From an uncultured Oscillospiraceae bacterium (GTDB lineage: Bacteria; Bacillota; Clostridia; Oscillospirales; Oscillospiraceae), in assembly GCA_934623575.1 (NCBI GenBank), contig CAKTVL010000004.1, positions 30,390-94,389 on the forward strand: a DNA stretch of 64,000 nucleotides, in the 5' to 3' direction. Both the position numbers and the translations under genes were made by a program. The notes under the pieces were generated by a model. The model was given only the letters and a program-made list of their open reading frames with translations, made no database searches and was not told the origin of the DNA. Shown here in pieces: positions 3,527 through 55,500 of this stretch (position 1 is its first letter; each line of letters begins with the position of its first letter).

Positions 3527-3664
3527 TAGAGAGAAAATGCCGTCCCCGCGTCCCCGCCCGGCACTGACGCGGAAAAACGCGCGTTCCGCGCGTTTTCCAT
3601 GTCGTTCTTGCTTGTTCTACGTTGTTGTCAACTGTTAAAATAACACGCCACAGGAGGTCGCTGT

Positions 3665-6600
3665 ATGAATAAGAAACGCATCCGGCAGATGGACCTGGCC
3701 CTTCGCCGCCGCCTGTCCGACCGTCCCGCCGACAGTCCCGCCGGGCAGGAGGACCTGCTCCGCACCCTGGAGACCGAGGACTATATGCAGCGCTTCGCCC
3801 CGCTTTTTGGCGGCGGCCGGCTCCGCTGCGCCGACGTGCTCTCCCTGTGCCGCCCGGAGCTGAACGCCTTGTGCCCCAACGCTTCCGGCGAGCCGGAGCA
3901 GGGCTGGCTGGCCTATACCTACGACTATGCCCGCCGCCTGCTCTACCCGGAAAAGACCGGCGACGACCCCTATGCCTCCGGCGCCCATTTCTTCCTCTCC
4001 GTCCTGCAGGTGCTCTTCGCCGCCGAGGCCGAGCTGCTGCCCCGCGACCCCGCCTGGACCTTCGATTTCCTCACCGACGAGGAGCTGGCGGACAGCCCCT
4101 CCGCCGCGTCCTATAGTCGCTTTTTACGCACCTGGAAGCGGGAATTTGTGTACGAAATGATGCGTTTAGGGCTGGAAATCACACCATATCGCACCCTTGA
4201 GCACATTGCCGGCGTCCACCATATCGCCGTCACCGCCGCCCGCGCCCTCCGCCGCAGCGGCACCGATGTGGACGTGGCGCTGGTCTCCGGCGCCGCCGCC
4301 GGCCACGACCTGGGCAAGTTCGGCTGCCGCCCCGGCGAGCGCGTGCCCTACCTGCACTATTACTACACCGACCAGTGGTTCCGCCGCCGGAAAATGACCG
4401 ACATCGGCCATGTGGCCGCCAACCACTCCGTGTGGGATCTGGAGCCGGACTACCTGTCCGTGGAGGCGCTGCTGCTGATCTACGCCGACTTCCGCGTCAA
4501 GCAGCTGCGGGGCGACCGGGGCCAGGAGATCACCCGCATCTCCACCCTGGACGAGGCGTTCCAGGTGATCCTGTCCAAGCTGGACGACGTGGACGGCGAG
4601 AAGAAAAAGCGCTACACCCGGGTCTATGCCCGGCTGCAGGACTTCGAGCAGTACATGATCAGCCGCGGCGTGGACGTCACCATGTCCGGCGGCGACACCG
4701 CGCCCCTGCCGGAGAAGCACACCGCCCTGATGACCGACGACGAGGCCCTGAAGGCGCTGACCCTGCGGTGCGTGGGCCACAATATCGAGCTGATGCGCCG
4801 TCTGACCGACCAGCGCAGCTTCGCCCGGCTGCTGGAGGAGGCCCGCGGCGAGACGGACTGGCGCCGCCTGCGGGCGTATCTGGCGGTGCTGGAGTCCTAC
4901 TCCCTCTATCTGCACATCCCCCAGAAGGTCCAGACGCTGACGTTCCTCTACGAGTTGCTGATGCACCGGGAGGGCGACATCCGCCGCCAGGCGGCGGCGC
5001 TGCTGGGCGAGATCATCGCCGGCTTCCACGCGGGCTACGCCAAGGAGCGCCCGGCGGACAGCCGCCCGGACGCCCGGGCCATCACCGACGTGGACCAGTG
5101 GAAGCTGTACCTGAGCAAGATCCTCTACCCCGACCACAAGCTGATGCCCCAGCACCGGCGGTGGATCGGCTATACCCTGAAGTTCGCCGTGGGCTCGCTG
5201 CTGAGCCACTGCCCCGGCCGGGAGGAGCGCTTCCTGGCCCCTGTGTTCGCCTATTACCGCAAGCCGGAGTCCCTGGACGACTACACCGCCTTCCAGCTGC
5301 TGGACACCGCCGCCGCGCTGCCCGACGAGGCGTACAGCGTCCGCCGCGCCCGGCAGATGGCCGACTTCGCCGCGGTGCTGTCCCGGCGGGAGGACCTGAC
5401 GCTGCGCATGGCTGCCGTGCTGCTGCTGGACAGGCTGTACCGCCTGTATCCCGATGGCGGGCGGGCGCTGGAGGCCGTGGCCGCCGTGGCCTGCGACGAC
5501 AGCGGCACTCTGCGCTATCTCCGGCAGGACGTGCTGTCCGAGGGCGAGCCGATCCTGCTGCCGGAGGAGGTGGTGTCCGAGATCTTCCTGGACAACCTGA
5601 AGACCGCCACCCCCTGGATCACCAAGCAGGCCAACCTGCGCCTGCTGACGGACTTTGCCCGCAGCGGGCAGAGCCCGGCCCTGCACATCGCCACCCATCT
5701 GTCCAACCTGATCAAGGTCAGCGACCGGGTCACCGTCCGCCACAGCGCGGGCAACGCTCTGCTGGTCCTGGCGCCCCGGCTCACCGCCGACCAGCGCAAC
5801 GAGGTGGCGGTGGAGCTGTGCCGCGGCCTGGAGCTGGGCCAGCAGGAGTTCACCAAGTACATCCCTGACTACCTGGGTCGGTTCGCCCTGTGGCTGCCCC
5901 CGGCGGAGCTGGACGAGATGCTGGACGACCTGCAGGTGAACCTCAGCTCCTCCGACAGCCGCATTTCTGCCTCGGTGCTGGACACCGTGGGCATCATCTA
6001 TGAGGAATACGACGCCTACCGCGCCCGCTTTCCGGAGACGGACCAGGCGTATCGCCGCCGCCGGGAGCGGCTGCTGGGCCTGCTGATGCGGGGTCTCAGC
6101 GGTATCGACGCCGCCACCCGGCAGGAGGCGCTGTTCGTGTTGGGCCGCCGGGTCTTCGGCTCCGGAGAGCTGGGCCGCCACGAAAAGCGCCGCGCCTTTA
6201 TGCTCACCCAGCGCAAGCTGCTGTCCGCCCAGGACGAGTTCCCCGGCGAGGGCCTGACCTTCTACTACCGGGCCGCCATGCTGGGCAAGCTCTACCGTTT
6301 CATCACCGAGGAGCGCCTGTTCCACAAGGGCTTTGACTTCGGCACGCCCCGGCCGGTGGCCTTTTTCCCCGGCACCTTCGACCCCTTCACACTGTCCCAC
6401 AAGGGCATCGTCAGGGCCATCCGGGACCAGGGCTTTGAGGTGCTGCTGGCCATCGACGAGTTCTCCTGGTCCAAAAAGACCCAGCCCTACCGGCTGCGGC
6501 GTCGCATCGCCGCCATGGCGGTGGCCGACGTGTTCCACGTCAGCATCTTCCCGGAGGACTTCCCGGTGAACATCGCCAATCCGGAGAACCTGCACGACCT

Positions 6601-8422
6601 GCGGGCGGCCTTCCCGGGCCGCAGCGTGTCCATCGTGGTGGGCAGCGACGTGGTGCTCCACGCCTCCTCCTACCAGAAGCCGCCCCAGCCGGATTCCGTC
6701 CACACCTTCGACCATGTGGTGTTCCGGCGCACCGAGCCGGACGCCGAGCCGGCGGACTACAGCTGCATCACCGGGCGGGTGCTGGAGCTGACCCTGCCGC
6801 CCCAGCTGGAGGAGATCAGCTCCACCCGCATCCGCGAGGCGGTGGACGCCAACCGCGACATCTCCAACCTCATCGACCCCACGGTGCAGGAGTTCATCTA
6901 CCGGCGGGGCCTGTATCTGCGGGAGCCCCAGGACAAGCCGGTGCTGCGGACGGAGGATCTCAGCTTCCTGCCCGCCTCCCCGGAGACGGCGGAGAAATTC
7001 CTGCGGACCATGCTGTCTGTGCCCACTGCCGCCGCCCTGCGGCAGCAGCTGGAGGAAAAGGGCGACGACATCATGGTCTGCCGCGGGGCGGACGGCGCCA
7101 TTCTGGGCGCGGCGTCCTACACCTGCCTAGACTCCACCCGGCTGTTCACCCGCCTGGGCGACCCGGCTCTGTCCGGCCTGGTGCGGCAGAACGCCGGGGG
7201 CCGCACGCTGCTCATCAGCGGCCTGTTCGTCCCCCGGGGCGAGCGGCAGAGCGACCTCTGCCAGCTGCTGATCACCGAGGTGCTGACCCTGGCCCTGAGC
7301 CGGGAGTTCACCTATGCTCTGTACCTGCCCCTGGAGGGCGCGGCCTCCGGCTACGGCCGCCAGCTGCTGACGCTGCAGGGCTTTATCCCCGCCGGGGACA
7401 GCACGGACGCCCTGGCGGTGGACATGCGCTGCCCCATCGTGCTCAGCCGCAACGTGGACACGGCGGTGAAGGCGCCCTTCAGCTCCGCGCCCCGTGTGCT
7501 GGGGGCCATTGCCGCCGCCCACCGGCGGCTGCAGGCGGCGCTGACCCGGCTGCAGCCGGGGTCCCTGGTGCTGAGCCTGTCCGCCGGGGTGATCTATCAC
7601 CGGCTGCTGCAGCGCATCACCGGGCGCAACGGCGTCCCGGCGGAGCCCACAGATCCCCGTGTGCTGGGGCCGGACATCTGCGTGCCCTACGGCAAGATCC
7701 TGCGCGGCGTGGCGGTGCCCAACACCGTCACCAAGACGCTGCGCACCGACAAGGTCTATGAGCCGGACCTCAGCGCCTATTCCATCGAGGCGTACCCGGA
7801 CTATTCGCCCCTGGCCGACCAGGTGCGCACCATCCACGCCTTCGCCCGCCCGGCCATCCTGGTGGACGACATGCTCCACGACGGCAAGCGCATCCGCCGG
7901 CTGGCCCCGCTGTTCGCCCAGACCAACACCCCGGTGGACCAGGTGCTGGTGGGCTATCTCACCGGCATGGGCCGGGACCTGATGGAGCAGCTGGGCTACA
8001 GCGTGGACGCCATCTACTATCTGCCCAACCTGCGGCTGCGGTTCGTGGAATCCACATTGTATCCCTTCATCGGCGGCGACACCGTCCGCCGCAGCGAGGC
8101 GCTGCCCGGCGGCTTGCAGCCGGCGGTGAACCGCATACTGCCCTACGCCGCGCCGGAGTACGCCGGTATGGACGACGAGACTGCCTGGGAGCTGAGTCTC
8201 TGCTGCCTGGAAAACGCCCGGGACATCCTGCTGGCGCTGGAGACGGAGTTTCGCGCCCTGTACGCCCGGAACCTGACCCTCAGCCGCCTGGGCGAGGCGG
8301 TGATCCTGCCTCTGTGCCCGGACAAGGGCGGCTGCATGACCTACGACCTGAGCCGCGCGGCCAGCACCTATCTGGAGGGCGACATCGAGCTGCTGAAGCG
8401 CATGCGCCCGGCCAAAAAGTAA
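3665..8422 (+). CDS. Mosaic HD / repeat / nucleotidyltransferase / phosphoribosyltransferase-like protein
   Basis: 1585 residues, start fixed by AGGAGG at 3652-3657. Domains seen in order: an HD phosphohydrolase-like core (VHHIAV at about 184, GHDLGKF at about 213); a long alpha-helical region (about 370-830) that looks like HEAT repeats; a cytidylyltransferase/NMNAT-type domain with FPGTFDPFTLSHKG at about 899 and ISSTRIREA at about 1051; a GNAT-like stretch (about 1085-1250, weak); and a phosphoribosyltransferase-type PRPP loop ILVDDMLHDGKRI at about 1396. The combination suggests nucleotide or NAD-related chemistry, but the reaction is not deducible. It heads an operon with a dehydrogenase-like and two redox genes. 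Domain boundaries are by eye. Confidence 0.8.
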   Translation: MNKKRIRQMDLALRRRLSDRPADSPAGQEDLLRTLETEDYMQRFAPLFGGGRLRCADVLSLCRPELNALCPNASGEPEQGWLAYTYDYARRLLYPEKTGDDPYASGAHFFLSVLQVLFAAEAELLPRDPAWTFDFLTDEELADSPSAASYSRFLRTWKREFVYEMMRLGLEITPYRTLEHIAGVHHIAVTAARALRRSGTDVDVALVSGAAAGHDLGKFGCRPGERVPYLHYYYTDQWFRRRKMTDIGHVAANHSVWDLEPDYLSVEALLLIYADFRVKQLRGDRGQEITRISTLDEAFQVILSKLDDVDGEKKKRYTRVYARLQDFEQYMISRGVDVTMSGGDTAPLPEKHTALMTDDEALKALTLRCVGHNIELMRRLTDQRSFARLLEEARGETDWRRLRAYLAVLESYSLYLHIPQKVQTLTFLYELLMHREGDIRRQAAALLGEIIAGFHAGYAKERPADSRPDARAITDVDQWKLYLSKILYPDHKLMPQHRRWIGYTLKFAVGSLLSHCPGREERFLAPVFAYYRKPESLDDYTAFQLLDTAAALPDEAYSVRRARQMADFAAVLSRREDLTLRMAAVLLLDRLYRLYPDGGRALEAVAAVACDDSGTLRYLRQDVLSEGEPILLPEEVVSEIFLDNLKTATPWITKQANLRLLTDFARSGQSPALHIATHLSNLIKVSDRVTVRHSAGNALLVLAPRLTADQRNEVAVELCRGLELGQQEFTKYIPDYLGRFALWLPPAELDEMLDDLQVNLSSSDSRISASVLDTVGIIYEEYDAYRARFPETDQAYRRRRERLLGLLMRGLSGIDAATRQEALFVLGRRVFGSGELGRHEKRRAFMLTQRKLLSAQDEFPGEGLTFYYRAAMLGKLYRFITEERLFHKGFDFGTPRPVAFFPGTFDPFTLSHKGIVRAIRDQGFEVLLAIDEFSWSKKTQPYRLRRRIAAMAVADVFHVSIFPEDFPVNIANPENLHDLRAAFPGRSVSIVVGSDVVLHASSYQKPPQPDSVHTFDHVVFRRTEPDAEPADYSCITGRVLELTLPPQLEEISSTRIREAVDANRDISNLIDPTVQEFIYRRGLYLREPQDKPVLRTEDLSFLPASPETAEKFLRTMLSVPTAAALRQQLEEKGDDIMVCRGADGAILGAASYTCLDSTRLFTRLGDPALSGLVRQNAGGRTLLISGLFVPRGERQSDLCQLLITEVLTLALSREFTYALYLPLEGAASGYGRQLLTLQGFIPAGDSTDALAVDMRCPIVLSRNVDTAVKAPFSSAPRVLGAIAAAHRRLQAALTRLQPGSLVLSLSAGVIYHRLLQRITGRNGVPAEPTDPRVLGPDICVPYGKILRGVAVPNTVTKTLRTDKVYEPDLSAYSIEAYPDYSPLADQVRTIHAFARPAILVDDMLHDGKRIRRLAPLFAQTNTPVDQVLVGYLTGMGRDLMEQLGYSVDAIYYLPNLRLRFVESTLYPFIGGDTVRRSEALPGGLQPAVNRILPYAAPEYAGMDDETAWELSLCCLENARDILLALETEFRALYARNLTLSRLGEAVILPLCPDKGGCMTYDLSRAASTYLEGDIELLKRMRPAKK

Positions 8423-8434
8423 GGAGGAGCCCTC

Positions 8435-9355
8435 ATGGATGCGATTTTTGACAAGAGCGCCCTGCCGCGCCTGCCGGAGAAGTGCCGGGTGACGCTGCTG
8501 GCCCTGGGCGACGTGGGCAGCACGCTGCTGATGGGCCTGCGGCTCATGGGCGGCGACGTGATCGGCTCCATCGGGATATGCGACGTGCGGCCCGGCGTGG
8601 CTGAGCGCTGGGAGCTCGAGCTGAACCAGATCCAGCCGCCGGACGGCGCGGCGCTGCCGCCGGTGGACATCATAGCGCCGGAGGCGCTGTTCGACGGCGA
8701 CGTGTTCCTGTTCTGCGCCTCCCGGATGGTGCCGGACACCTCTGTGACCAGCGGGGACGTGCGCATGGCGCAGTACGGCCTGAACCGGGAACTGGTGGGC
8801 AGCTACGCCCGCATGGCCCGGGAGAGGGGCTATCGGGGGCTGTTCTGCGTGGTCAGCGACCCGGTGGACCCCCTGTGCCGCTGGGCGCTGCGGGAGAGCG
8901 GCCTTGCGCCGGCCCAGGTGCGGGGCTTCGGCCTGGGCGTCATGCACGCCCGGGCGCTGTACTACGCCCGGAAGGACCCGCGCTTCGCCTCCTATCTCAC
9001 CGAGGGACGGGCCTTCGGCCCCCACGGCGAGGACCTGGTGCTGGCCAACTCCATCGCGCACTACGACGACGCGCTGTCCCGGGAGCTGACGGAGAAGGTG
9101 GCCCACGCCAATCTGGAGATGCGGGCGCTGGGGTACAAGCCCTATGTGGCCCCGGCGCTGAGCTCCGGGGCGCTGAGCCTGCTGGCGCTGCTGCGGGGAC
9201 AGTGGCACTACGCCTCCGTCTATGACGGGCGGGTGTTCATGGGCTGCCGCAATCGCCTGACGGCGGCGGGCATCGAGACGGAGCAGCTGACGCTGCCGCC
9301 CGCCCTGCAGGCGCGTCTGGACGAGACGAGAGCGAAGCTGGACGCCATCGAATAG
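8435..9355 (+). CDS. Lactate/malate dehydrogenase-family protein (divergent)
   Basis: 306 residues. The N-terminus is a Rossmann fold in which the glycine motif is altered (LLALGDVGSTLL), ending with an acidic residue typical of NAD binding (GICDV). SDPVDPLC corresponds to the NPVD motif of LDH/MDH, and GPHGEDL occupies the place of the catalytic-His GEHGD motif. Identity with true L-lactate dehydrogenases is clearly low, so the substrate should not be assumed. It starts 12 nt after the mosaic gene and has a GGAGG site. Confidence 0.75.
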   Translation: MDAIFDKSALPRLPEKCRVTLLALGDVGSTLLMGLRLMGGDVIGSIGICDVRPGVAERWELELNQIQPPDGAALPPVDIIAPEALFDGDVFLFCASRMVPDTSVTSGDVRMAQYGLNRELVGSYARMARERGYRGLFCVVSDPVDPLCRWALRESGLAPAQVRGFGLGVMHARALYYARKDPRFASYLTEGRAFGPHGEDLVLANSIAHYDDALSRELTEKVAHANLEMRALGYKPYVAPALSSGALSLLALLRGQWHYASVYDGRVFMGCRNRLTAAGIETEQLTLPPALQARLDETRAKLDAIE

Positions 9356-9360
9356 TGGTA

Positions 9361-9405
9361 AGAACGTAGAAGAACGCCGTGGAACGGCCGGAGAAGAGGG
9401 GAGAA
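9361..9405 (+). repeat. Phased RGAA spacer (copy D)
   Basis: Fills the gap between two genes of the operon. AGAA or GGAA begins at 9361, 9371, 9381, 9392 and 9402, that is every 10-11 nt, on the coding strand. It is almost free of T. It resembles four other spacers in this window. Confidence 0.5.
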
Positions 9406-9409
9406 CGCT

Positions 9410-10441
9410 ATGCTTACCGTACTGCTGCCTGAAAATGAACACAGCGGCGCCCTGCGGGGCCTGCTGGTGCCCCTGCTGCCGCCGGGCAGCGTCATCCGCG
9501 ACCCGGACGAGGGGCTGGACGGCCTGGAGGGCCGGCGGCTGCTGTTTGCCGTGGCCCTGGACGAGAGCGGCTGCAATATGGCCTACTACCGCATGCTCTC
9601 CCGCCTGCGGCGGGATGCGGCGCTGCTGGAGGGCTGCGTGGCCGGGTGCGTGGTCACCGGGGTGGGGGAGTTCTACACCAAGGACGTGGCCCGGGACATG
9701 GTCTTTGCCGCCAACCAGGCGGGCTGCGGCTTTCTGGGCCGCCCGCTGGTGGAGGCCACCGGCTCCCTGCGGAATTTCCGCACCCAGGCCCAGATCGGCG
9801 GCACCGACGAGGTCACGGCCTTCCACGCCGCCGTAAAAGAGCTGCTCTCCCGTCTGGCGGGCTGGGAAAAGCCCGCGCCCATCCGCCATTTGCTGGCGCT
9901 CCACGCCTCCCAGCGCGCCACGTCCAACACCCTGGCCCTGTGGGAGCTGGTGAAGGCCGGGCTGCCGGAGGACATCGACGTGGAGGAGATCTGCCTGCGC
10001 AACGGCACCATGGCCGACTGCAACGGGTGCAGCTACACCGCCTGCCTGCACTTCGGCGAGCAGGGCGGCTGCTTCTACGGCGGCCCCATGGTGGACGAGG
10101 TCTATCCCGCCGTCCGCCGGTGCGACGCGCTGGTGATGCTGTGCGCCAACTATAACGACGCCCTGGCGGCCAACCTGACGGCCTGCGTCAACCGCCTGAC
10201 GGCCCTGTTCCGCCAGACCCGGATGTACGACAAGCGGCTCTTCGGCCTGATCGTCTCTGGCTACTCCGGCGGCGACCTGCTGGCCCGGCAGCTGATCTCG
10301 GCGCTGAACATGAACAAGTCCTTCTATCTGCCGCCCCATTTCTCCCTGCTGGAGACCGCCAACGAGCGGGGCAGCCTGGTGAAGCTGCCGGGTATCGCGG
10401 AGCAGGCGGCGGCCTTTGCCCGCCACATGGCCCGGAGCTGA
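9410..10441 (+). CDS. FMN-dependent NADPH reductase / iron-sulfur flavoprotein-like
   Basis: 343 residues. The C-terminal half has the flavodoxin-like layout of NADPH-dependent FMN reductases: LLALHASQRATSNT as the phosphate loop, then a cysteine cluster DCNGCSYTACLHF...GGCFY where iron-sulfur flavoproteins bind a cluster, then LVMLCANYND. The N-terminal 170 residues are less familiar. A ferredoxin follows, so electron transfer between ferredoxin, flavin and the adjacent dehydrogenase-like protein is plausible. Substrate unknown. Confidence 0.75.
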   Translation: MLTVLLPENEHSGALRGLLVPLLPPGSVIRDPDEGLDGLEGRRLLFAVALDESGCNMAYYRMLSRLRRDAALLEGCVAGCVVTGVGEFYTKDVARDMVFAANQAGCGFLGRPLVEATGSLRNFRTQAQIGGTDEVTAFHAAVKELLSRLAGWEKPAPIRHLLALHASQRATSNTLALWELVKAGLPEDIDVEEICLRNGTMADCNGCSYTACLHFGEQGGCFYGGPMVDEVYPAVRRCDALVMLCANYNDALAANLTACVNRLTALFRQTRMYDKRLFGLIVSGYSGGDLLARQLISALNMNKSFYLPPHFSLLETANERGSLVKLPGIAEQAAAFARHMARS

Positions 10442-10510
10442 CGAAGGGGGAATAGCGCCGGGGAAAAGCGGGGAAAATACTTCCATCCTGACAGGAAGGA
10501 GGTGCTTTTC

Positions 10511-10702: not shown

Positions 10703-10741
10703 AAAACCCGGCGGAAAAGGCTTTTTCAAGGAAAAAAGCAC

Positions 10742-24557: not shown

Positions 24558-25082
24558 ATGAAGAAATTTGTTGCTATGCTGCTGGCTCTGGTCATGGCGT
24601 TGTCTCTGATGGCCTGCGGCCAGAAGGAGGATAACATCGGCGGCGAGAAAAAGGACGACCAGACGCAGACCGACGGTCAAACCGTTGACCTGAAGGCCGC
24701 CTATGACGCCGCCATCGCCAAGGTCAACGAGGAGCTGGGCGACAACGCACCCGTGCTGCTGGAGGAGACGGCTGTGGAGATCCTGAACAGCTACTACCCC
24801 GGCCTGGAGAACGCCAAGCTGAAGCAGTCTGTATTCTTCATCTCACCCACCGCCACCTCCTGCGAGGTGTCCATGGTGGAGGCGGAAAGCGCCGCCGACG
24901 CTGAGATCGTCCGCCAGAGCTTCCAAGCCCGTGTGGACGCTATGGCCAGCGACACCACCTATCCCGAGGAGGCCGGCATGTGGAAGAACAATGCCACCGT
25001 TACCGTCAACGGCAACTATGTGGTGCTGGAGGTCCTGCCCGACGGCTGCACCGTTCCTGACGCTTTCTTGGCGAAATTCTGA
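24558..25082 (+). CDS. DUF4358 lipoprotein
   Basis: 174 residues. Signal peptide with lipobox LSLMAC, a charged linker (EKKDDQTQTDGQ), then a globular domain with VFFISPTATSCEVSMVE resembling DUF4358. Surface-anchored, function unknown. It precedes the ECF sigma gene by 73 nt and could be cotranscribed by readthrough. Confidence 0.78.
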   Translation: MKKFVAMLLALVMALSLMACGQKEDNIGGEKKDDQTQTDGQTVDLKAAYDAAIAKVNEELGDNAPVLLEETAVEILNSYYPGLENAKLKQSVFFISPTATSCEVSMVEAESAADAEIVRQSFQARVDAMASDTTYPEEAGMWKNNATVTVNGNYVVLEVLPDGCTVPDAFLAKF

Positions 25083-27356: not shown

Positions 27357-28271
27357 TTACTCCGCGGCGGGGGCGTCGTTTTCCACCAGCATCTTCGCGC
27401 TGGCGGCCAGACCGGCCAGGCCCTGGATCTCGCTGGGGATGATCAGCTTGGTGGCCTTGCCGTCCGCCACCTTCTCCAGCGCCTCCAGCGCCTTCAGCTT
27501 GATGACCTGGTCGTTGGGGGCGTTCTCGTTCAGCAGCCGCATGGAGTCGGCCATGGCCTGCTGCACCTTCAGGATGGACGCCGCCTCGGCCTCGGCGGCC
27601 ATGATCTTGGCCTGCTTGGCCGCGTCGGCCCGCAGCAGGGTGGACTGCTTCTCGCCCTCGGCGATCAGCACCTTGCTGGCCTTTTCGCCCTCGGCCTGCA
27701 GGATGGACTCGCGCCGCTCGCGCTCGGCCTTCATCTGCTTTTCCATGGCGTTCTGGATCTCCCGCGGCGGCAGGATGTTCTTCAGCTCCACCCGGTTGAC
27801 CTTGATGCCCCACGGGTCGGTGGCCTCGTCCAGAATGGAGCGCATCTTGGCGTTGATGGTGTCGCGGCTGGTCAGGGACTGGTCCAGCTCCAGCTCGCCG
27901 ATAATGTTCCGCAGGGTGGTGGCCGTCAGGTTCTCGATGGCGCTCATGGGGTACTCCACGCCGTAGGTGTACAGCTTGGGGTCGGTGATCTGGAAATAGA
28001 TCACCGTGTCGATCTGCATGGTCACGTTGTCCTTGGTGATCACCGGCTGGGGGTCGAAGTCAGCCACCTGCTCCTTCAGGCTGACCTTCTTCACCACCCG
28101 CTCGATGAACGGCAGCTTGAAGTGCATGCCCACGCCCCACACACTGTGGAACGCGCCCAGGCGCTCCACCACATAGGCCTTGGACTGCTGCACGATCTGG
28201 ATGCAGCTGACGATGACCGCCAGGATCAGGACGACTAAAATGATGATGGCGATGGTTCCGGTTGTCGGCAT
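27357..28271 (-). CDS. SPFH-domain (stomatin/slipin) membrane protein
   Basis: 304 residues from the ATG at 28271, preceded by AAGGAGGAATC. One N-terminal membrane helix (IAIIILVVLILAVIVSCI), then the SPFH/band 7 domain (SKAYVVERLGAFHSVWGVGMHFKLPFIE split over residues about 28-55, DNVTMQIDTVIYFQITDP) and a coiled coil rich in Ala, Glu and Lys. It forms membrane microdomain scaffolds and is typically paired with NfeD, present here two genes upstream. Confidence 0.94.
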   Translation of the reverse strand: MPTTGTIAIIILVVLILAVIVSCIQIVQQSKAYVVERLGAFHSVWGVGMHFKLPFIERVVKKVSLKEQVADFDPQPVITKDNVTMQIDTVIYFQITDPKLYTYGVEYPMSAIENLTATTLRNIIGELELDQSLTSRDTINAKMRSILDEATDPWGIKVNRVELKNILPPREIQNAMEKQMKAERERRESILQAEGEKASKVLIAEGEKQSTLLRADAAKQAKIMAAEAEAASILKVQQAMADSMRLLNENAPNDQVIKLKALEALEKVADGKATKLIIPSEIQGLAGLAASAKMLVENDAPAAE

Positions 28272-28353: not shown

Positions 28354-28430
28354 GGCGCGCACGCGCCGTTCTGCGCCGTTCTCAGCGTTTTCTCATGCTT
28401 TCTTGCCCTTTCCATGTTGCTGTCAACAAC
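28354..28430 (-). repeat. Phased RGAA element with head and hairpin (copy A)
   Basis: On the minus strand: head GTTGACAGCAACATGGAA (28410-28427), then AGAA motifs whose complements start at 28400, 28390, 28379 and 28369, then a GC hairpin GGCGCG-tg-CGCGCC (28354-28367). It lies in the leader of the SPFH gene. Confidence 0.5.
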
Positions 28431-28440
28431 GATTTTGGGG

Positions 28441-28542
28441 TCATTCCGCGTCTCCGGAGCTCTTGTGCTTGTAAATGCGGTATAGAATGCACCCCACCGT
28501 CGCCAGCAGTATGACGGCTAATCCGATCAGAATAAACGGCAT
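28441..28542 (-). CDS. 33-residue single-helix membrane peptide
   Basis: ATG at 28542 preceded by AAGGAG (overlapping the NfeD stop), TGA at 28441-28443. One helix (PFILIGLAVILLATVGCILY) with a basic tail RIYKHKSSG. It sits between the NfeD and SPFH genes and is probably a small partner of that complex. No family recognised. Confidence 0.6.
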   Translation of the reverse strand: MPFILIGLAVILLATVGCILYRIYKHKSSGDAE

Positions 28543-48248: not shown

Positions 48249-48273
48249 TATCCTCCGTCCTCACGCCCCGCGG

Positions 48274-48302
48274 TTGCCAAACCGCCGCCGGGCTGGTAGT
48301 AT
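48274..48302 (+). promoter_or_regulatory. Promoter of the second ECF sigma operon
   Basis: TTGCCA (48274-48279), 17-bp spacer, TAGTAT (48297-48302) with a TGG extension. Confidence 0.5.
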
Positions 48303-48380
48303 AGATCTGGAACCATCGAAAAATTCCCCTGTCACAGCTCCCCTGTTCATCCGTTATATTGGCAAAGGGCGGTGAGACGC

Positions 48381-48872
48381 GTGGACAACGACATCTTTGA
48401 CCAGCTGTACCGGCGGCACTATGCCGCTGCGCTGCTGTATGCCCAGTGCCTGTGCCGCAGCCGCCACCTGGCGGAGGACATGGTGCAGGAGGCCTTCTGC
48501 CGCGCGTGGCTGTCGCTGCCCGACGAGGTGGTCAGCTTCCGCGGCTGGCTGTTCCGCGTGCTGCGCAACCTCATCATCGACCATCTGCGCCGCTGCCAAC
48601 ACCTCTCGGACGACCCGCCGCCGGAGCAAACGGACGGCAGCACGCCGGAGAGCCTTCTGCTGCGGCAGGAGGACGCCGCGGCCCTGTACCGCGCCATGGC
48701 GCAGCTGCCGCCGGCGGACCGCGAACTGCTGACGCTGCACTGCTTCGCCCATCTGTCCGCGCCGGAGCTGGCGGCGGTGCTGCACACCACACCATCGGCC
48801 ATACGCCAGCGGCTGCACCGGGCACGGACGCGGCTGCGGCAGAAAATGGAGGAGGACGGCTATGAATTTTGA
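48381..48872 (+). CDS. ECF-type RNA polymerase sigma factor (second)
   Basis: 163 residues from GTG 48381; a GTG at 48372 is the alternative. Region 2 (RRHYAAALLYAQCLCRSRHLAEDMVQ split, then EAFCRAWLSL) and region 4 (LPPADRELLTLHCFAHLSAP, TTPSAIRQRLHRARTRLRQ) are present. Overlaps the anti-sigma gene by 11 bp. Unrelated in detail to the sigma factor at 25.2 kb. Confidence 0.9.
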   Translation: MDNDIFDQLYRRHYAAALLYAQCLCRSRHLAEDMVQEAFCRAWLSLPDEVVSFRGWLFRVLRNLIIDHLRRCQHLSDDPPPEQTDGSTPESLLLRQEDAAALYRAMAQLPPADRELLTLHCFAHLSAPELAAVLHTTPSAIRQRLHRARTRLRQKMEEDGYEF

Positions 48873-50001
48873 GACGGCATTCGCCCGCTATCAGGCGGGC
48901 ACCGCCAGCGCCGAGGAGACGGCGCTGGTGGAGCAGGAGCTGGAAAAATACCGGCTCATCGAGGACTATATGGCCGCGCAGGCGCTGCCGCCGCTGCCGG
49001 AGGACACGGCGGCTCAAACGGAGACGGCCGCGATCAAGCGCCGCCTGGGCCGCCGCACCCGCCGCACGGTGCTGATGGCGGTGGCGGCGACGCTGGCGGT
49101 GCTGGCGCTGTTGCACTTCGTGCTCTCGCCGCTGGTGAACCGCGGCGTATACGGCCAGCGCGTGGAGCGCGCGGCGGGCTATCAGCCCTTCGACGCCGCC
49201 ATGACGGCCGTGACCGGGCTGTATATGCCCCTGGGCAGCTACACCGGCAGCACCCTGACCCACTCCGGCTTTATGACCGACACCCTCCACCTGCAATTCT
49301 GGGACCTGACCGGCGAGACGCGCTTCGGCATACGCACCGGCGTGACACTGCGGCTGGGCATGCTGGGAGAGCTGGACGCCGCCGATCTGCTCCCGCTCCA
49401 CTATGCCGTCGTCGGCTACTTCACCTCCGCTTTCGATGCGGACGGCACCGAGCTCGAGCCCTCCGACGGCAGCCTGCTGGCCCTGAAGGAGATGAGCGAC
49501 CAGCTGACCGTCACCGCCGCCGTGCGCTTCCGGGAAAACATCACCGCGGAAGAGCTGTCCGCGCTGATGTCCCGCCACCCGGAGCTGACATTCCTGTCCG
49601 GCAAGGTGGAAAACCAGGGCGCCTACCTCCCCCAGTCGCTGTTCTGCTCCCTGACCGACGCCGGCATTGACTTCGGCGACGCGCTGGAGCAGGAGTACCC
49701 TCTTCTGCAGCTGCACCCGGACGGCGGACGGCAGCCCACCGGCGCGGAGATACAGCAGCACTTCGAGAGCATGGTGCGCCTTCTGCTGGACCACCCCCGG
49801 CTCGTCGCAGCGGACAGCATGATGGGCAACGACGCCGGCAACTACCGCCGCCTGCTGCAGGATGTCCAGGCCAACGGCCTGCTCTTCGGCGGCGTGTGGG
49901 TACAGGGCACGCCCTCCCAGCTGCTCTCGCTGATGGACGAGGACTGCACCCGCTCCATCAGCAGCTACAGCGCCCGGCTCCGCCTGTCCGTCTCCGAATG
50001 A
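48862..50001 (+). CDS. Membrane anti-sigma factor (Sigma_reg_N/C type)
   Basis: 379 residues. A short cytoplasmic N-terminus (MNFETAFARYQAGTASAEE), one helix (about 69-88, TVLMAVAATLAVLALLHFVL) and a long extracellular domain with repeats like VRFRENITAEELSALMSR, resembling the sigma-regulator N/C pair found with ECF factors in Firmicutes. Predicted to hold the sigma factor inactive at the membrane until a surface signal. Confidence 0.78.
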   Translation: MNFETAFARYQAGTASAEETALVEQELEKYRLIEDYMAAQALPPLPEDTAAQTETAAIKRRLGRRTRRTVLMAVAATLAVLALLHFVLSPLVNRGVYGQRVERAAGYQPFDAAMTAVTGLYMPLGSYTGSTLTHSGFMTDTLHLQFWDLTGETRFGIRTGVTLRLGMLGELDAADLLPLHYAVVGYFTSAFDADGTELEPSDGSLLALKEMSDQLTVTAAVRFRENITAEELSALMSRHPELTFLSGKVENQGAYLPQSLFCSLTDAGIDFGDALEQEYPLLQLHPDGGRQPTGAEIQQHFESMVRLLLDHPRLVAADSMMGNDAGNYRRLLQDVQANGLLFGGVWVQGTPSQLLSLMDEDCTRSISSYSARLRLSVSE

Positions 50002-50007
50002 ATAACA

Positions 50008-50046
50008 GCATCCCCCGGGCTTGATAGCCCGGGGGATGCCTTTTTT
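50008..50046. terminator. Bidirectional terminator
   Basis: 14-bp stem GCATCCCCCGGGCT / AGCCCGGGGGATGC, loop TGAT, followed by CTTTTTT. Confidence 0.9.
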
Positions 50047-50136
50047 ACTGCCGCTTCTCCGGCGGCGTCATGCCGTCAGGCATGGCGGGGCGTTCGCCCC
50101 GGTCTGCGGGAAAGTCCCCGCCGCCCTTGCCGCCGA
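50045..50136 (-). pseudogene. C-terminal tail of a deleted minus-strand gene (uncertain)
   Basis: About 30 codons ending in a TAA at 50045-50047, Gly/Pro-rich (GGKGGGDF, PAMPDGMTPPEKRQ at the end). Such tails are seen on extracellular proteins such as CotH-type kinases. It meets the response regulator fragment at about 50137-50150, implying a deletion. Confidence 0.35.
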
Positions 50137-50382
50137 ATGGCCCGCCGCCTGCGTCTCAGCGGCCGGGAGCTCCAGGTCATGGAGCTGTTCCTGCGCGCGC
50201 CCCGCCAGGTGTTCTCCGCCGAGCGCATCCTGGAGCTGGTCTGGGGCTGGGACAACGACGCCGAGATCAACGTGGTCTGGGTCAATATCTCCAACCTGCG
50301 GAAAAAGCTGAAGTCCATCGGCTCCCGCATGACGCTGCGGGCCAACCGCGGCCTGGGCTATGTACTGGAGGAGGAAGCATGA
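50137..50382 (+). pseudogene. Response regulator remnant: DNA-binding domain only
   Basis: 81 codons encode the complete winged helix of an OmpR-type regulator (LRLSGRELQVMELFLRAP, then NISNLRKKL and ANRGLGYVLEEEA) but the receiver domain is absent and there is no ribosome site before the ATG. Its stop still overlaps the kinase start (ATGA), as in an intact pair. Confidence 0.8.
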
Positions 50383-51143
50383 TCAACAAGCTGCGCAGCC
50401 GCTTCATCCGCATCGCCACGCTGTCCGTGGCGGCGGTGCTGCTGCTGGTGGTGCTGCTGAGCCGCCGGGCCATCGACCCCGTGGTCCGCGGCGCGGAGCA
50501 GCAGAAGCAGTTCATCACCGACGCCGGCCACGAGCTCAAGACCCCCATCACCGTCATCGCCACCAGCCTGAAGGTCCTGGAGATGGAGGTAGGCCCCCAG
50601 AAGTGGATCGACAAGGCCCGCGCCCAGACGGAAAAGCTCCGCGCACTGGTGGACTCCCTGGTGACCCTCTCCCGCATGGACGAGGAGCGCTCGCCCCTGC
50701 GCATGGAGCCCTTCCCCGTCAGCGACGCCGTGGCGGAAACGGCCGAGTCCTTCCGCCAGGTGGCGCAGGACGGCGGCCGCGCGCTGGAGCTGTCCATAGC
50801 GCCGGACCTCACCTACACCGGCGACCAGTGCGCCGTGCGGCAGCTGACCTCCATCCTGCTGGACAACGCCGTCAAGTACGCCGCGCCGGGCGCTCCCGTC
50901 TCTCTGTCGCTGGAAAAAAGCCACGGCGGCGTGACCCTGCGCGTCTCCAACGCCTGCGAAAACGCCGAGGACATCGACACCGCCCGGCTGTTCGACCGCT
51001 TCTACCGGGCCGGCCCGTCCCGCACCTCCGGCGGCTTCGGCATCGGCCTGTCCATCGCCCGCGGCATCGTCCAGGGCCACCACGGCGCCATCTCCGTCGC
51101 CGCGGAAAACGGCGTCATCACCTTCACCGCCCAGCTGAAATAG
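50379..51143 (+). CDS. Histidine kinase lacking a sensor domain
   Basis: 254 residues, short for this family. One membrane helix (LSVAAVLLLVVLL) leads directly into AGHELKTPITVIATSLK (H-box), LLDNAVKYAAPG (N-box) and GFGIGLSIARGI (G-box). The usual extracellular sensor between two helices is missing, apparently an in-frame deletion. With its partner reduced to a DNA-binding domain, the system probably no longer signals normally. Confidence 0.8.
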   Translation: MINKLRSRFIRIATLSVAAVLLLVVLLSRRAIDPVVRGAEQQKQFITDAGHELKTPITVIATSLKVLEMEVGPQKWIDKARAQTEKLRALVDSLVTLSRMDEERSPLRMEPFPVSDAVAETAESFRQVAQDGGRALELSIAPDLTYTGDQCAVRQLTSILLDNAVKYAAPGAPVSLSLEKSHGGVTLRVSNACENAEDIDTARLFDRFYRAGPSRTSGGFGIGLSIARGIVQGHHGAISVAAENGVITFTAQLK

Positions 51144-51159
51144 CGCAAAAGCAAAGAAC

Positions 51160-51200
51160 GACCGGCATCCCATGTGCAGGCATGGGACGCCGGTCCTTTT
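51160..51200. terminator. Terminator between the kinase and the bile-salt-hydrolase-like gene
   Basis: 15-bp stem GACCGGCATCCCATG / CATGGGACGCCGGTC with one A-C mismatch, then CTTTTT. Confidence 0.88.
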
Positions 51201-51209
51201 TCGTTTTCT

Positions 51210-52184
51210 TCAATTCTGGCAGTGTACCCGCCACGCCGTGTCCAGCGGATACCCGCTGAGCGCCGCGCCGTCCAGGTCACAGCGGTGCATGTCCACCGCG
51301 CACAGCTGGGCGGCGTCATAGGTGGTGTAGTAATACACGCCGGTGTCGGCGTTGCAGCAGGAGGTATACAGCGTCAGCTCGCAGCTGCCGTCCTCCAGCA
51401 CACAGCAGCCCCGCTGCTGGGCCGCCGCGCCCAGAATGTGCAGGAACTGGCTGACGCTCTGGGCCTCGCCGTCGCCGGACACGCTGTTCAGCCGTGTAAA
51501 GGCCGCCCGCACGAACCGGGAGCGGGAGGACAGGTCGCCGGGCAGGCCCATGGCCCCCATGCCCCGGCTGTAGGCCGTCAGCGGCAGCTCCGGGGAAAAC
51601 CGGTTCTCCGGCGGCCGGGCCGACAGCTGGGCATAATCGTTCAGGGCGAACAGCTGCACGGGGAAGGGCGGCTCGTTGGCCAGCACCCCGGCGGGGTCGT
51701 CGTACACATGCAGCCCCTCCGCCGTCTGCTCCACCACCAGGCACTGCTCCCGGTCCGCCAGCAGCCAGTGCAGCTTGGCCGGGGCCATGCCGGGCAAAAA
51801 GGCGTCGTCGGTGATGTGCGCCTCCTCCAGCGCCGCCCGGGCCTCCGCCGCGGTGGCGCAGCGCCCCAGCAGCCAGGGGATCAGCTCAAACTGCGCCAAA
51901 TTCGCCTTCCCCGCCGCGCAGGGGCCGTATACGGCGCTGCGCACGAAGTTCAGCCCCGCGATGCACAGCCCCTTTTCGTTGACGGCGTCGTAGTACAGGG
52001 GGAACCCCTGCTGCACCGACGCCATGCCGATCATGGCGTAGTGCGCCTCCAGCTCCGGCAGATGGCGCATGGGGATGGGAAAGCGCCGGGGCGTGACGAC
52101 CACCTGCTCGCCGAAGCCCCTCTCATAGTCCAGATTCCGTCCGAAATAAAAACACCTGGTCCGGTATGTGGCCGCTGTACACAT
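51210..52184 (-). CDS. Choloylglycine hydrolase family (bile salt hydrolase-like)
   Basis: 324 residues. The N-terminal nucleophile Cys2 (MCTA), Arg16 and Asp19 (FGRNLDYE) align exactly with bile salt hydrolases; AGLNFVR, LANEPPFPVQLFALNDY and SSRSRFVRAAF supply the remaining catalytic Asn and Arg residues. Ntn-hydrolase that cleaves amide bonds of conjugated bile acids or penicillin V; substrate needs testing. AAAAGGAGGG precedes the ATG. Confidence 0.9.
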   Translation of the reverse strand: MCTAATYRTRCFYFGRNLDYERGFGEQVVVTPRRFPIPMRHLPELEAHYAMIGMASVQQGFPLYYDAVNEKGLCIAGLNFVRSAVYGPCAAGKANLAQFELIPWLLGRCATAAEARAALEEAHITDDAFLPGMAPAKLHWLLADREQCLVVEQTAEGLHVYDDPAGVLANEPPFPVQLFALNDYAQLSARPPENRFSPELPLTAYSRGMGAMGLPGDLSSRSRFVRAAFTRLNSVSGDGEAQSVSQFLHILGAAAQQRGCCVLEDGSCELTLYTSCCNADTGVYYYTTYDAAQLCAVDMHRCDLDGAALSGYPLDTAWRVHCQN

Positions 52185-52198
52185 GGCAGGCCCTCCTT

Positions 52199-52273
52199 TT
52201 CTTCACGTTCTCGTGTTTTCTTGCGCGTTTCTCGCGCTTTCTTATGCGTTTCTCGCTCTTTCCTGTGCATTCT
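52199..52273 (-). repeat. Phased AGAA spacer (copy B)
   Basis: Between LysR and the hydrolase gene. On the plus strand TTCT begins at 52199, 52208, 52218, 52229, 52239, 52250 and 52270 (TTTC near 52260), that is AGAA every 10-11 nt on the transcribed minus strand. Two of the units form near-identical 21-nt tandem copies. Confidence 0.55.
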
Positions 52274-53139
52274 TATTCGCTGTCCGCCGGCGCGTCGGGG
52301 TATTGCCGCTTCAGGAACGATAGGAAATACCGGGCGGCGCTGTTGGCCGGGGGCGGCGTTTTCACCGCCGCGCCCAGACTGCGGGACAGCGCCTCCCGCA
52401 GCGGCAGCACCTGCACCTGCCCCTCGTAGCCCGCCAGGGAAAAGGCCGACAGCACGCTGACGCCCAGCCCCGCAGCCACCATGGACAGTATGGCCGCATC
52501 ATCCGAGGCGGTGACCTCCAGCCGGGGCGAATCCGGCGGCAGCAGCCGCGCCACATACTGCTCCGGGCAGGACAAAAACGTCTCCTGCAGCAGCCGCTCC
52601 AGAGGGATGGTGTCCTCCTCCCAGGGGAAATCCGGCGGCACCACCGCCACCAGCGGCGCGTCGATCAGCGGCGTCCAGTAAAAGCCATTGGCGCAGGAGC
52701 GCTCCACCAGCGCCAGCTGCACCCGGTCCTCCTCCAGCGCGCCGGCCAGCTCATAGCCGCCCACCAGCACGTCGATCTTGATCTCCGGGTGGAGCTTGCG
52801 GAACTTGTGCAGCAGCACCGGCAGCCTGGCCCGGGCCAGGCTGGCGAAGCAGCCGATACGCAGGGTGCGGCTGTGGCTCTCGCCCAGGGCGGCGGCCGCC
52901 TGCCGCAGCGCGTCGCCGGCGCCCAGATAGGTGCGGATATAGGGCAGCAGCTGCTCCCCCTCCTCCGACAGCCGGACGCCGTGGCTGCTGCGCACCAGCA
53001 GGGTGCAGCCCAGCTCCGCCTCCAGTTTGTTGACCAGGTGTGTCATGGCGGACTGGGTATAGCCCAGCTGCGCCGCCGCTTTTCCGAAGCTGCCCAGCTG
53101 CACCGCCGTCAGCAGTGCCCGCAGCTTTTTGTCATCCAT
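52273..53139 (-). CDS. LysR-family transcriptional regulator (second)
   Basis: 288 residues. MDDKKLRALLTAVQLGSFGK, GYTQSAMTHLVNKLEAELG (recognition helix) and an effector-binding domain with LRIGCFASLARARLP. It is in the same direction as, and 88 nt before, the bile-salt-hydrolase-like gene, and divergent from brnQ. Confidence 0.92.
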   Translation of the reverse strand: MDDKKLRALLTAVQLGSFGKAAAQLGYTQSAMTHLVNKLEAELGCTLLVRSSHGVRLSEEGEQLLPYIRTYLGAGDALRQAAAALGESHSRTLRIGCFASLARARLPVLLHKFRKLHPEIKIDVLVGGYELAGALEEDRVQLALVERSCANGFYWTPLIDAPLVAVVPPDFPWEEDTIPLERLLQETFLSCPEQYVARLLPPDSPRLEVTASDDAAILSMVAAGLGVSVLSAFSLAGYEGQVQVLPLREALSRSLGAAVKTPPPANSAARYFLSFLKRQYPDAPADSE

Positions 53140-53436
53140 AGGGGCCTCGCTTTCTGTACAAAATGGATAAAATAATCGCTGTGATTTCTCAATATATCAC
53201 AAACGCCATTGGCTTTCAATCTCCTGTTTGTAAACTTTTTGACAATGCTGCCGTCGCCGCTGTTAAGAAATTTGTACGTCATTAGTTTTATTCATGCCGC
53301 GTTCGATAATCGTCATTTCCGAAAAGTCGAAATAAATGGTACCCTATATATAGCAAGCCGCGGCGCGCTCCCGCGCGGAACGGCGGCAGCGCTTCGCACA
53401 CGGCGAGGCGGGAACAAGAGAGGAATGAAAAGCAAA
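53140..53436. other. Divergent regulatory region LysR/brnQ
   Basis: 297 bp, AT-rich. Contains AT-rich promoter-like sequence around 53160-53200 and TATATA at 53347-53352. TCATTTCCGAAAAGT resembles a weak CodY box (10 of 15 positions). No coding sequence is convincing, although the brnQ frame stays open through it. Confidence 0.45.
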
Positions 53437-54765
53437 ATGAGAGGAAACGAGAAGAGAAGGACCACCATCGACGTGGTCGTGGTGGGGTTCGCGCTGTTCT
53501 CCATGTTTTTTGGCGCGGGCAATGTGATATTCCCGCCGTTTTTGGGCATGGAATCCGGCAGCAGCTGGCTGGAGGGCTTCGCCGCGTACTTCATCGCGGA
53601 CATCGGCTTGGCCATGATGTGCATGTTCGCCCTGCTGCGCGTGGGCAGCAGCGAGCAGGTGCTGCAGCGGGTGGGCAAGGTGCCCTCCGAGATCCTGATG
53701 TGCGCCATCATTCTGTGCATCGGCCCCATGGTGGCCATCCCCCGCACCAGCGCCAGCACCTATGAAATGGCCATCGCCCCCAATCTCTCCGGCGTGTCGC
53801 CGATCCTGTTCTCCGTGGTGTTTTTCGCGGTGATCCTGGCCCTGTGCATCAAGGAGTCCGCCGTGGTGGACATCGTGGGCAAGGTGCTGACGCCCCTGCT
53901 GCTGGTGGGCCTGTTCGCCATCATCATCAAGGGCGTGGTGACGCCGCTGGGCGCCGTTACCGCCCCGCCGCAGATCGACAACGTGGCCGTGACGGGCATC
54001 AAGGCCGGCTACCAGACCATGGACGCGCTGGCGGCGCTGCCCTTCGGTATCATCATCCTGCAGAGCGTGACCAGCAAGGGCTATGCCCGGGGCAAAAGCC
54101 AGTTCCGCGTGGTCGGCGGCGCGGCGCTGCTGGCGGGCGTGCTGCTGCTGGCGGTGTATATGGGCCTGGCCTATCTGGGGGCCACGGTGTCCGCCCAGTA
54201 CGACAGCAGCATCGGCCGTGCGGCGCTGATCATGGCCATTGTGGAGTCCCTGATGGGCAAGGCGGGCATGGTGCTCTTCGGCGTGGTGGTGGGCCTGGCC
54301 TGCGTGACCACCGCCGTGGCGCTGACCAGCTCCGCGGCCGCGTACTTCGCCGAGCTGTGCCGCGGCAAGGTGGATTATAAGGTATTTGTGGTGCTGATCT
54401 GCGTGTTCAGCGCCGTGGTATCCAACCTGGGGCTGGACCGCATCGTGGCGGTGGCCGCGCCGGTGCTGGATATAGTATACCCGCCGGCGCTGGTGCTTAT
54501 CTGCATCTCGCTGGTGATCCCCAAGGTGCATGACTTCGTCAGCCGCGGCGCCGCAGCCGGCGCGCTGCTGACCAGTGTGCTGTGCACGCTGCACACCTAC
54601 GGCGTGTCCATCCCGCTGGTGGAGGCGCTGCCGCTGTATGACCTGGGCCTCAGCTGGTTGCTGCCTGCGGCGGTGTTCGGCCTAGCGGCGCAGCTGCTGA
54701 CGCTGCTGCCCGGCGTCCGCAGGGCGGAGGATCGGTCCGCCCGCCGGGCGGACGGCAGAAGCTGA
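53437..54765 (+). CDS. brnQ: Branched-chain amino acid carrier (BrnQ/LIVCS family)
   Basis: 442 residues from ATG 53437 (AGAGG 13 nt before; ATG 53425 is the alternative). Twelve membrane helices; VVVVGFALFSMFFGAGNVIFP is split over residues about 13-33, and the family motif is clear. Cation-coupled import of leucine, isoleucine and valine. Divergent LysR could regulate it. Confidence 0.92.
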   Translation: MRGNEKRRTTIDVVVVGFALFSMFFGAGNVIFPPFLGMESGSSWLEGFAAYFIADIGLAMMCMFALLRVGSSEQVLQRVGKVPSEILMCAIILCIGPMVAIPRTSASTYEMAIAPNLSGVSPILFSVVFFAVILALCIKESAVVDIVGKVLTPLLLVGLFAIIIKGVVTPLGAVTAPPQIDNVAVTGIKAGYQTMDALAALPFGIIILQSVTSKGYARGKSQFRVVGGAALLAGVLLLAVYMGLAYLGATVSAQYDSSIGRAALIMAIVESLMGKAGMVLFGVVVGLACVTTAVALTSSAAAYFAELCRGKVDYKVFVVLICVFSAVVSNLGLDRIVAVAAPVLDIVYPPALVLICISLVIPKVHDFVSRGAAAGALLTSVLCTLHTYGVSIPLVEALPLYDLGLSWLLPAAVFGLAAQLLTLLPGVRRAEDRSARRADGRS

Positions 54766-54781
54766 TATTCGCTTTCTTCCG

Positions 54782-54810
54782 GGGCGGGGCCGCGGCCCCG
54801 CCCTTTCTCT
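54782..54810 (+). terminator. Terminator after brnQ
   Basis: 10-bp stem GGGCGGGGCC / GGCCCCGCCC, loop GC, then TTTCTCTC. Confidence 0.75.
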
Positions 54811-54943
54811 CCCTTTGGTGACGATTTGACACATTTTGGTGCAATTTAGTGCATTTTGGCGATTCTTCTGCGATCAGGTATCATTTTGTCCCGATCTATC
54901 CCCGTTTAGCACCGCTTTTTCCGCTGGTTTGCGGCGGCGGGGC

Positions 54944-54973
54944 TTGACAGAGACGGGGCTTTTGCCGTACAAT
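54944..54973 (+). promoter_or_regulatory. Promoter of the TM1266-ABC operon
   Basis: TTGACA (54944-54949), 18-bp spacer, TACAAT (54968-54973). Confidence 0.75.
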
Positions 54974-55123
54974 ACCCATGCTGCTGACGTCGAAAGTGCG
55001 CTTGAGACGGAAGATGCGTACCATAGTTTTTGCGCCCGCTCAGCGGGCGCTGCGGTCGTGTCGCGGTGGCGGTGCGGCTTTTTTATTTTGCCGCGAAACC
55101 GTTGAAAACAGGAGGTTTTTTGC

Positions 55124-55387
55124 ATGGAGACACGGGTGGCGCTGATCGGCATCATCGTGGAGGACGAGTCGTCGGTGGCGGCGCTGAACGAGCTGCTGCA
55201 CGGCTATGGGCAGTATATCATCGGGCGGATGGGCGTGCCCTATCGGAAGCGGGGCGTGAACATCATTTCAGTGGTGCTGGACGCGCCGCAGGACGCCATC
55301 TCCGCCCTCAGCGGAAAGATCGGACGGCTGCACGGCGTCAGCGCCAAGACGCAGTATTCCAACGTTATCACACGGGCGGAGGCATGA
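55124..55387 (+). CDS. TM1266-family protein (iron-only hydrogenase system regulator-like)
   Basis: 87 residues after AGGAGG. RVALIGIIVEDESSVAALNE, GRMGVPYRKRGVNIISVVLD and the ACT-like alternation of strands and helices match the TM1266 family, commonly annotated as a putative regulator of iron-only hydrogenase systems. No hydrogenase gene is in the window; here it precedes an ABC importer. Confidence 0.85.
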   Translation: METRVALIGIIVEDESSVAALNELLHGYGQYIIGRMGVPYRKRGVNIISVVLDAPQDAISALSGKIGRLHGVSAKTQYSNVITRAEA

Positions 55388-55399
55388 ATCGTATTCAAA

Positions 55400-55500
55400 T
55401 CGGCGCAGAAATCGTGCATAAAGATGCAGAACAAGAAGCGGACAACAACATAGAACAACGCAGAAAGGCATAGAAAAGCCGCAGAACGGGCCAAAAGGCC
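55400..55500 (+). repeat. Phased AGAA element with head and hairpin (copy C)
   Basis: Head GACAACAACATAGAA (55441-55455), AGAA at 55452, 55462, 55472 and 55483, and GGCC-aaaa-GGCC hairpin (55489-55500). It fills most of the gap between the TM1266 and binding-protein genes. Confidence 0.5.

Follow-up and report, generated by a model that had tools for sequence, protein, structure and literature searches.

RGAA arrays with a helical-turn period in five untranslated gaps of an Oscillospiraceae genome segment

The window analysed here, a 64-kb stretch of DNA from an uncultured Oscillospiraceae bacterium, carries five arrays in which the motif RGAA recurs on one strand every 10-11 nt. These arrays are real and non-random, and each of them sits in an untranslated gap. 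Among the genomes searched, they are restricted to a single lineage.

Results

Five RGAA arrays spaced by one helical turn

Both strands of the window were scanned for RGAA chains without preset positions, with an allowed spacing of 9-12 nt. Exactly five chains of at least four units were found (S1 to S5; Table 1), together with a sixth, shorter chain of three units at 25054-25080. This unbiased scan recovered all five arrays at the positions and on the strands given by the original prediction, including the eight units of S4 and the placement of all units of an array on one strand. The first steps were 10-10-11 in each of the five arrays, an agreement whose chance is about 0.005 when the step frequencies are simply multiplied.

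The spacing was evaluated in a set of 38 gaps (5,941 nt in total; length filter 30-600 nt; gene calls made for this analysis). Five chains of at least four RGAA units at 10-11 nt were present in these gaps, compared with a mean of 0.002 and a maximum of 1 in order-1 Markov shuffles (n = 500), which bears out the claim of a non-random helical spacing. No such chain was found in the 38 gaps at any other pair of adjacent spacings from 5-6 to 24-25 nt. Lowering the threshold to three units at 10-11 nt again gave five chains (shuffles: mean 0.094, maximum 2). When each array was shuffled within its own composition, flanks included, the observed length was reached in 0/4,000 shuffles for each of S1 to S4 and in 3/4,000 for S5. 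A chance origin is ruled out by the gap shuffles together with the own-composition shuffles; the 10- and 11-nt steps, which shift the reading frame, speak against a coding origin.

Table 1. Positions of the arrays and of their heads and predicted hairpins in the window.
Feature	Position	Strand	Description
S1 array	3584..3618	-	four RGAA units, steps 10,10,11
S2 array	9361..9405	+	five RGAA units, steps 10,10,11,10
S3 array	28369..28413	-	five RGAA units, steps 10,10,11,10
S4 array	52199..52273	-	eight RGAA units, steps 10,10,11,10,11,10,9
S5 array	55452..55486	+	four RGAA units, steps 10,10,11
S1 head	3615..3629	-	GACAACAACGTAGAA; sequence comparison
S3 head	28410..28424	-	GACAGCAACATGGAA; sequence comparison
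S5 head	55441..55455	+	GACAACAACATAGAA; sequence comparison
S1 terminal hairpin	3574..3596	-	perfect 10-bp stem, last GAA in loop, T runs on either strand
S2 hairpin	9376..9388	+	GCCG-TGGAA-CGGC; fold prediction
S4 mini-hairpins (three)	52204..52256	-	52246-52256, 52223-52237 and 52204-52215; AGAA in loops
S5 terminal hairpins	55478..55509	+	CCG-CAGAA-CGG (55479-55489), or in the MFE fold a larger GC stem around GGCC-AAAA-GGCC

Anatomy of the arrays

The five arrays comprise 26 units, 21 with AGAA and five with GGAA. RGAA is followed mostly by C or A, then mostly by G or A, and then by a mostly G/C stretch; the invariance of RGAA itself is partly built into the array search, which looked for RGAA chains. 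S4 is a 21-nt tandem repeat of two RGAA half-units (TRF period 21, score 75).

As predicted, S1, S3 and S5 have a common 15-nt head located 5' of the first unit, with identities of 12/15 for S1-S3, 12/15 for S1-S5 and 11/15 for S3-S5 (letter shuffles, p ≤ 0.0001). The equivalent stretch of S4, which is the end of the LysR gene, is identical to the S3 head at 8/15 positions (p = 0.014) and to that of S5 at 9/15 (p = 0.0095). The spacers of S1 and S5 are identical at 16 of 25 positions (p = 0.0007), and none of the other nine array pairs showed significant spacer similarity (p = 0.09-0.59); pooled over all five arrays, the spacers are more similar than their shuffles (p = 0.0016). Given the shared head and the S1-S5 spacer match, at least S1, S3 and S5 look related by descent.

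The terminal GC hairpin that had been proposed for S1, S3 and S5 is predicted in all three. In S4, the loops of three mini-hairpins lie exactly 21 nt apart and are separated by AAGAAA linkers. Since the stems differ in length (3, 5 and 4 pairs), it is not they that set the spacing. With RGAA fixed and the spacers shuffled, the summed GAA-loop stems amounted to 36, compared with 7.0 +/- 4.8 in the shuffles (0/1,000). The excess was maintained without S1 (26 compared with 5.8; 0/1,000) and was weak without S1 and S4 (14 compared with 4.3; p = 0.02). Relative to dinucleotide shuffles, the folding energy was low for S1 (z = -2.76), S4 (z = -2.68) and S5 (z = -3.38), and not low for S2 (z = 0.09) and S3 (z = -0.44). 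The folding energy total of S2, S3 and S5 was not unusual relative to spacer shuffles (p = 0.155).

Genomic setting

Within the leader of the plus-strand gene at 3665, S1 follows a promoter match (TTGACA-18-TATTAT, 3497-3526). Since S1 is on the minus strand, its RGAA runs antisense to the transcript predicted for this gene. S2 fills most of a 54-nt gap separating the genes at 8435 and 9410, while S3 is flanked by a 33-codon ORF (28441-28542, minus strand) and an SPFH/Band-7 gene (27357-28271, minus strand). S4 lies between the stop of a LysR-type gene (52273-53139, minus strand) and the ribosome-binding site of a gene of the choloylglycine hydrolase family (51210-52184, minus strand). S5 lies between the 55124 ORF and an ABC-transporter substrate-binding protein gene at 55541. 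S2 and S4 span the distance from a stop codon to the next start region, and S3 and S5 are found in co-directional gaps. The predicted sense strand carries RGAA in four of the five arrays, S1 being the exception, which agrees with the claim that four copies lie in the sense strand of a gene leader or operon gap. The neighbours of S1 and S2 include a 1,585-residue protein with a cytidylyltransferase-like domain and an FMN reductase family protein, respectively. Overall, the genes flanking S1 to S5 have no common function.

Three further features were seen close to the arrays. A 29-codon ORF (55384-55473), whose start lies in an ATGA overlap with the end of the 55124 ORF, extends into S5; it could encode a small translated protein. 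The next gap after the gene downstream of S2 contains a weak partial array (10442-10510) with CGGGGAAAAG about twice. At 3336-3382, a GC-rich, REP-like segment of 40-50 nt is present which recurs in congeners (eight listed places each in G371 and G416).

Distribution among relatives

Relatives were obtained from one protein search, which gave 80 loci, many of them titled Oscillospiraceae; the genus of the best locus comprises 32 genomes. The closest of these 32 congeners, as judged by a methyltransferase (91%), is G402, whose longest DNA matches near the arrays have 83-88% identity. G417 is equally close near S4 and S5 (83-84%).

The clearest case of a missing array is S4, where the gap measures 88 nt in the window and 16 nt and 14 nt in G402 and G417, respectively (manual alignment count). 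The S2 gap measures 54 nt in the window and 14 nt in G402, and the array is also missing from G127 and G413. In G416 the S2 array is missing and a different insertion is present; this insertion (L225, about 1340-1500) contains TTTTGTCATTCCGACC and GCAATGACAGG. S5 is missing from the orthologous gaps of G402, G417, G413 and G416, and S3 from those of G402, G416 and G001. S1 was compared with G402, in which the leader is unrelated sequence. Because several relatives are without S2 to S5, gain of these arrays in the lineage of the window would be a simpler history than loss in all others.

Pattern searches extended this comparison. The 80 related loci (1.25 Mb) contained no chain of four RGAA units at 10-11 nt. 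The expectation that the head motif would recur in related species was not borne out: when head plus array was searched with up to 3 mismatches in the 32 congeners, 16 of them gave a match but no true copy was detected, all 16 matches being one conserved non-array sequence. A five-unit pattern that fits S2, S3 and S4 occurs three times in the window; across 394 genomes of the order it was seen in a single genome, once, and its control also matched one time, elsewhere.

The shorter 10-10-11 pattern is more widespread, with matches in 50 of 400 family genomes. Among 30 of these family matches inspected with their flanks, a few resemble gap arrays with other units (L106, L113). Allowing up to one mismatch, 29 of the 32 genomes of the genus gave 79 matches, compared with 23 for the backward control (manual tally), so that the pattern is about three times as frequent as its control beyond the window as well. 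Six of these matches were exact, and none lay in G402. None of 30 genus loci inspected equals the window arrays in length and in GC-rich spacers, although L149 and L164 do look like arrays.

A viral origin was considered and rejected. The head-plus-array pattern had no match in viral_contigs; the five-unit pattern matched 93 viral stretches, and none of the 80 loci inspected by eye resembles the window arrays.

Background periodicity and other arrays

The spacing of intergenic AA pairs has a peak at 10-11 nt in both the window and G402, and in the window this periodicity remains, less strong, when the arrays are masked. For Oscillospiraceae at large, the 311 strictly non-coding segments analysed (49 kb, from 80 loci) showed no bias towards a 10-11 nt period, and within the genus the bias is mixed, other periods being present too.

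Congeners carry sporadic gap arrays with a period of 10-11 nt and with other cores. In G402, the array of L232 (1276-1516) has (C/G/A)GAC in 17 of 21 slots at exactly 10 nt over 200 nt, with unfilled slots every 40 nt and a terminator-like hairpin after the array. Two other loci of G402 contain an 11-nt gap array with the core TGATACATTTA (L226, 7837-8136) and a gap array of 10-11 nt period with another core that reaches near a start codon (L227, 11903-12052). In G127, GGAY cores at about 11 nt and long palindromes occupy a gap of 491 nt (L252, 16738-17228), and in G371 a CGGTG-core gap array of 10-11 nt period reaches near a start codon (L271, 8858-8966). Those congener arrays that were folded were not unusually stable, one terminator excepted. 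L164 (G422) and L113 (G057) have similar phased GAAAAC arrays with TTGACAAGG downstream, perhaps an orthologous curved promoter region. Short-period degenerate arrays thus also exist outside the window, which stands out in having a single core repeated in five gaps.

The window also contains a phased T-tract array of 10-nt period with TTTTGGTGCA-like units (54815-54870), located upstream of a TTGACA-18-TACAAT match. Its modelled curvature is above that of every background 50-mer compared, and by flank distance it is missing in G402.

Discussion

Our tentative reading is that the five arrays belong to a dispersed repeat that is young, specific to this lineage and inserted in untranslated gaps; each array would be a degenerate tandem repeat whose unit, about 21 nt long, combines two RGAA half-units. 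Such an array may have been kept as a multi-site docking array, with RGAA staying constant and evenly spaced while the spacers drifted. The level of action would be the mRNA, in which RGAA would be displayed in small hairpin loops and purine-rich linkers 5' of ribosome-binding sites. There, RGAA would be bound by the translation machinery or by a multivalent RNA-binding protein, and this binding would control how the gene downstream is expressed. That a dispersed repeat has been kept as a docking array acting in mRNA is possible, and still short of probable. The arrays are probably constrained; what we infer is their common descent, that RGAA is under selection, that the arrays act at the RNA level, and both ligand and effect, and our confidence in any mechanism is low.

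The RNA level is favoured because of the sense orientation of four of the five arrays and their closeness to start regions, the DNA level because of the strict spacing and the orientation of S1, and docking in mRNA appears slightly more likely than docking in DNA. Several observations count against the RNA reading: a constant spacing of 10-11 nt suits duplex DNA better than flexible RNA, S1 is antisense to its predicted transcript, and the folding energy of S2 and S3 is not low. The unrelated flanking genes and the congener arrays of similar period with other cores count against the explanation as a whole. Among known RNA-level systems, the core recognised by CsrA/RsmA is GGA, and docking arrays of the RsmZ type present this motif in loops and linkers. 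The arrays described here likewise place a short purine motif in hairpin loops and linkers above chance, albeit weakly without S1 and S4; they differ in the core, as GGAA makes up only 5 of the 26 units and AGAA the other 21.

Docking on the DNA itself is a possible alternative, though an unlikely one on balance. A cooperative protein that binds head to tail, as OmpR/PhoB-type regulators and ParR do, would contact one RGAA per turn along one face of the helix. Direct repeats of 10-11 bp are typical of the OmpR/PhoB-type and ParR families, and OmpR/PhoB-type operators and ParR-parC arrays consist of tandem direct repeats suited to cooperative binding. As in these systems, several short head-to-tail direct repeats of about one turn each (10-11 bp) are found here. 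The mean spacing of about 10.3 nt is near that of B-DNA and constant whatever the stem length, one strand holds all units of an array, and a mixed orientation to transcription, as in S1, would be tolerated. However, neither the scanned region around S4 nor the S5 gap yielded a promoter match, an unusual situation for operator sites, and S2 and S4 reach the start region of the next gene; for S3, a weak promoter match (9/12) is located downstream, between the array and the downstream gene. DNA docking also leaves the hairpin excess unexplained and has to accommodate unrelated flanking genes: unlike the known operators, the arrays lie in gaps beside start regions and have no common regulon.

A further explanation, which we consider doubtful, is that the arrays are repeat filler, generated by slippage or template switching in operon gaps. 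The near-helical period would then follow from the mechanism, and the arrays would persist as harmless, unstructured purine-rich spacers with no sequence-specific reader. This is consistent with the intergenic 10-11 nt arrays of congeners, whose cores differ (CGAC in L232, GGAY in L252, CGGTG in L271, TGATACATTTA in L226), and with the variation in gap length and inserted content among these genomes, exemplified by G416 at the S2 gap. It is at odds with the repetition of the RGAA core in five separate gaps and with the head common to S1, S3 and S5. Moreover, S4 has all eight GAA intact (8/8) and differing spacers, which would be unlikely under even decay, an argument weakened in that RGAA chains were the search target. 

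As to the dispersed repeat of our main reading, REP and MITE-like elements are dispersed intergenic repeats, and related copies at several gaps, missing in the relatives compared, are likewise found here. In contrast to such elements, the copies share mainly core and spacing, beyond the heads of S1, S3 and S5 and the S1-S5 similarity. Neither terminal inverted repeats nor a target-site duplication were visible by eye at the boundaries of S4 and S2.

Phased A-tract curvature, by which the arrays would be intrinsically bent DNA, is very unlikely. The period of one turn described for prokaryotic A-tracts (PMC3940949, PMC3431218, PMC3372288, PMC4132750 and PMC7537859) is also found here, and AA pairs peak at this distance as a background in the gaps of the window and G402. 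In a wedge model restricted to AA/TT, S1 to S5 ranked at the 86th-100th percentile, marginally above shuffles (p = 0.006-0.054). In a full dinucleotide wedge model, by contrast, they ranked at the 75th-98th percentile and did not exceed composition-matched shuffles (p = 0.13-0.42), whereas the T-tract array near 54.8 kb did (0/500). RGAA units hold just 2-4 consecutive A, and the arrays differ from A-tract periodicity in their four-letter core, in the single strand used per array, and in being discrete and missing in the relatives compared.

Antisense Rho loading, in which the other strand would offer TTCY with evenly spaced C every 10-11 nt and stop antisense transcripts, is the least probable explanation and hardly credible: S4, at 75 nt, comes close to the 78 nt over which, according to PMC6407284, a Rho predictor requires C>G and C every 11-13 nt, but the spacing here is 10-11 nt, S4 alone is long enough, and that strand forms hairpins as well.

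The original prediction had also held that no element of this layout is described, and our searches agree. The whole window gave three tRNAs only in Rfam at the gathering threshold, and the S4 region gave no match at E up to 1. In the accessible parts of the open-access literature searched, RGAA arrays at one helical turn are not described. The spaced motif pairs of Tong et al. 2017 (PMC5217627) resemble the arrays in combining short motifs at a fixed distance with variable spacers, often in gaps; none of the eight pairs in Table 7 of that paper is an RGAA or one-helical-turn array. Short repeats at the helical turn are already known, and the arrays are a variant of phased short direct-repeat arrays in gaps. 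That they represent a new multivalent nucleic-acid element, with RGAA every 10-11 nt in mini-hairpin loops and linkers, which a putative multimeric protein reads and which has recently spread among operon gaps within a single lineage, is distinctly unlikely; such an element would possibly provide coordinated control of unrelated genes.

If the arrays are functional, several unrelated genes of one lineage have recently come to lie beside one and the same phased docking site, which would be a route to wiring a regulon that can be traced between sister species. If they are mere repeats, they show that operon gaps can gather insertions whose period matches the helical turn. The clean presence or absence of the arrays among close relatives makes their function directly testable.
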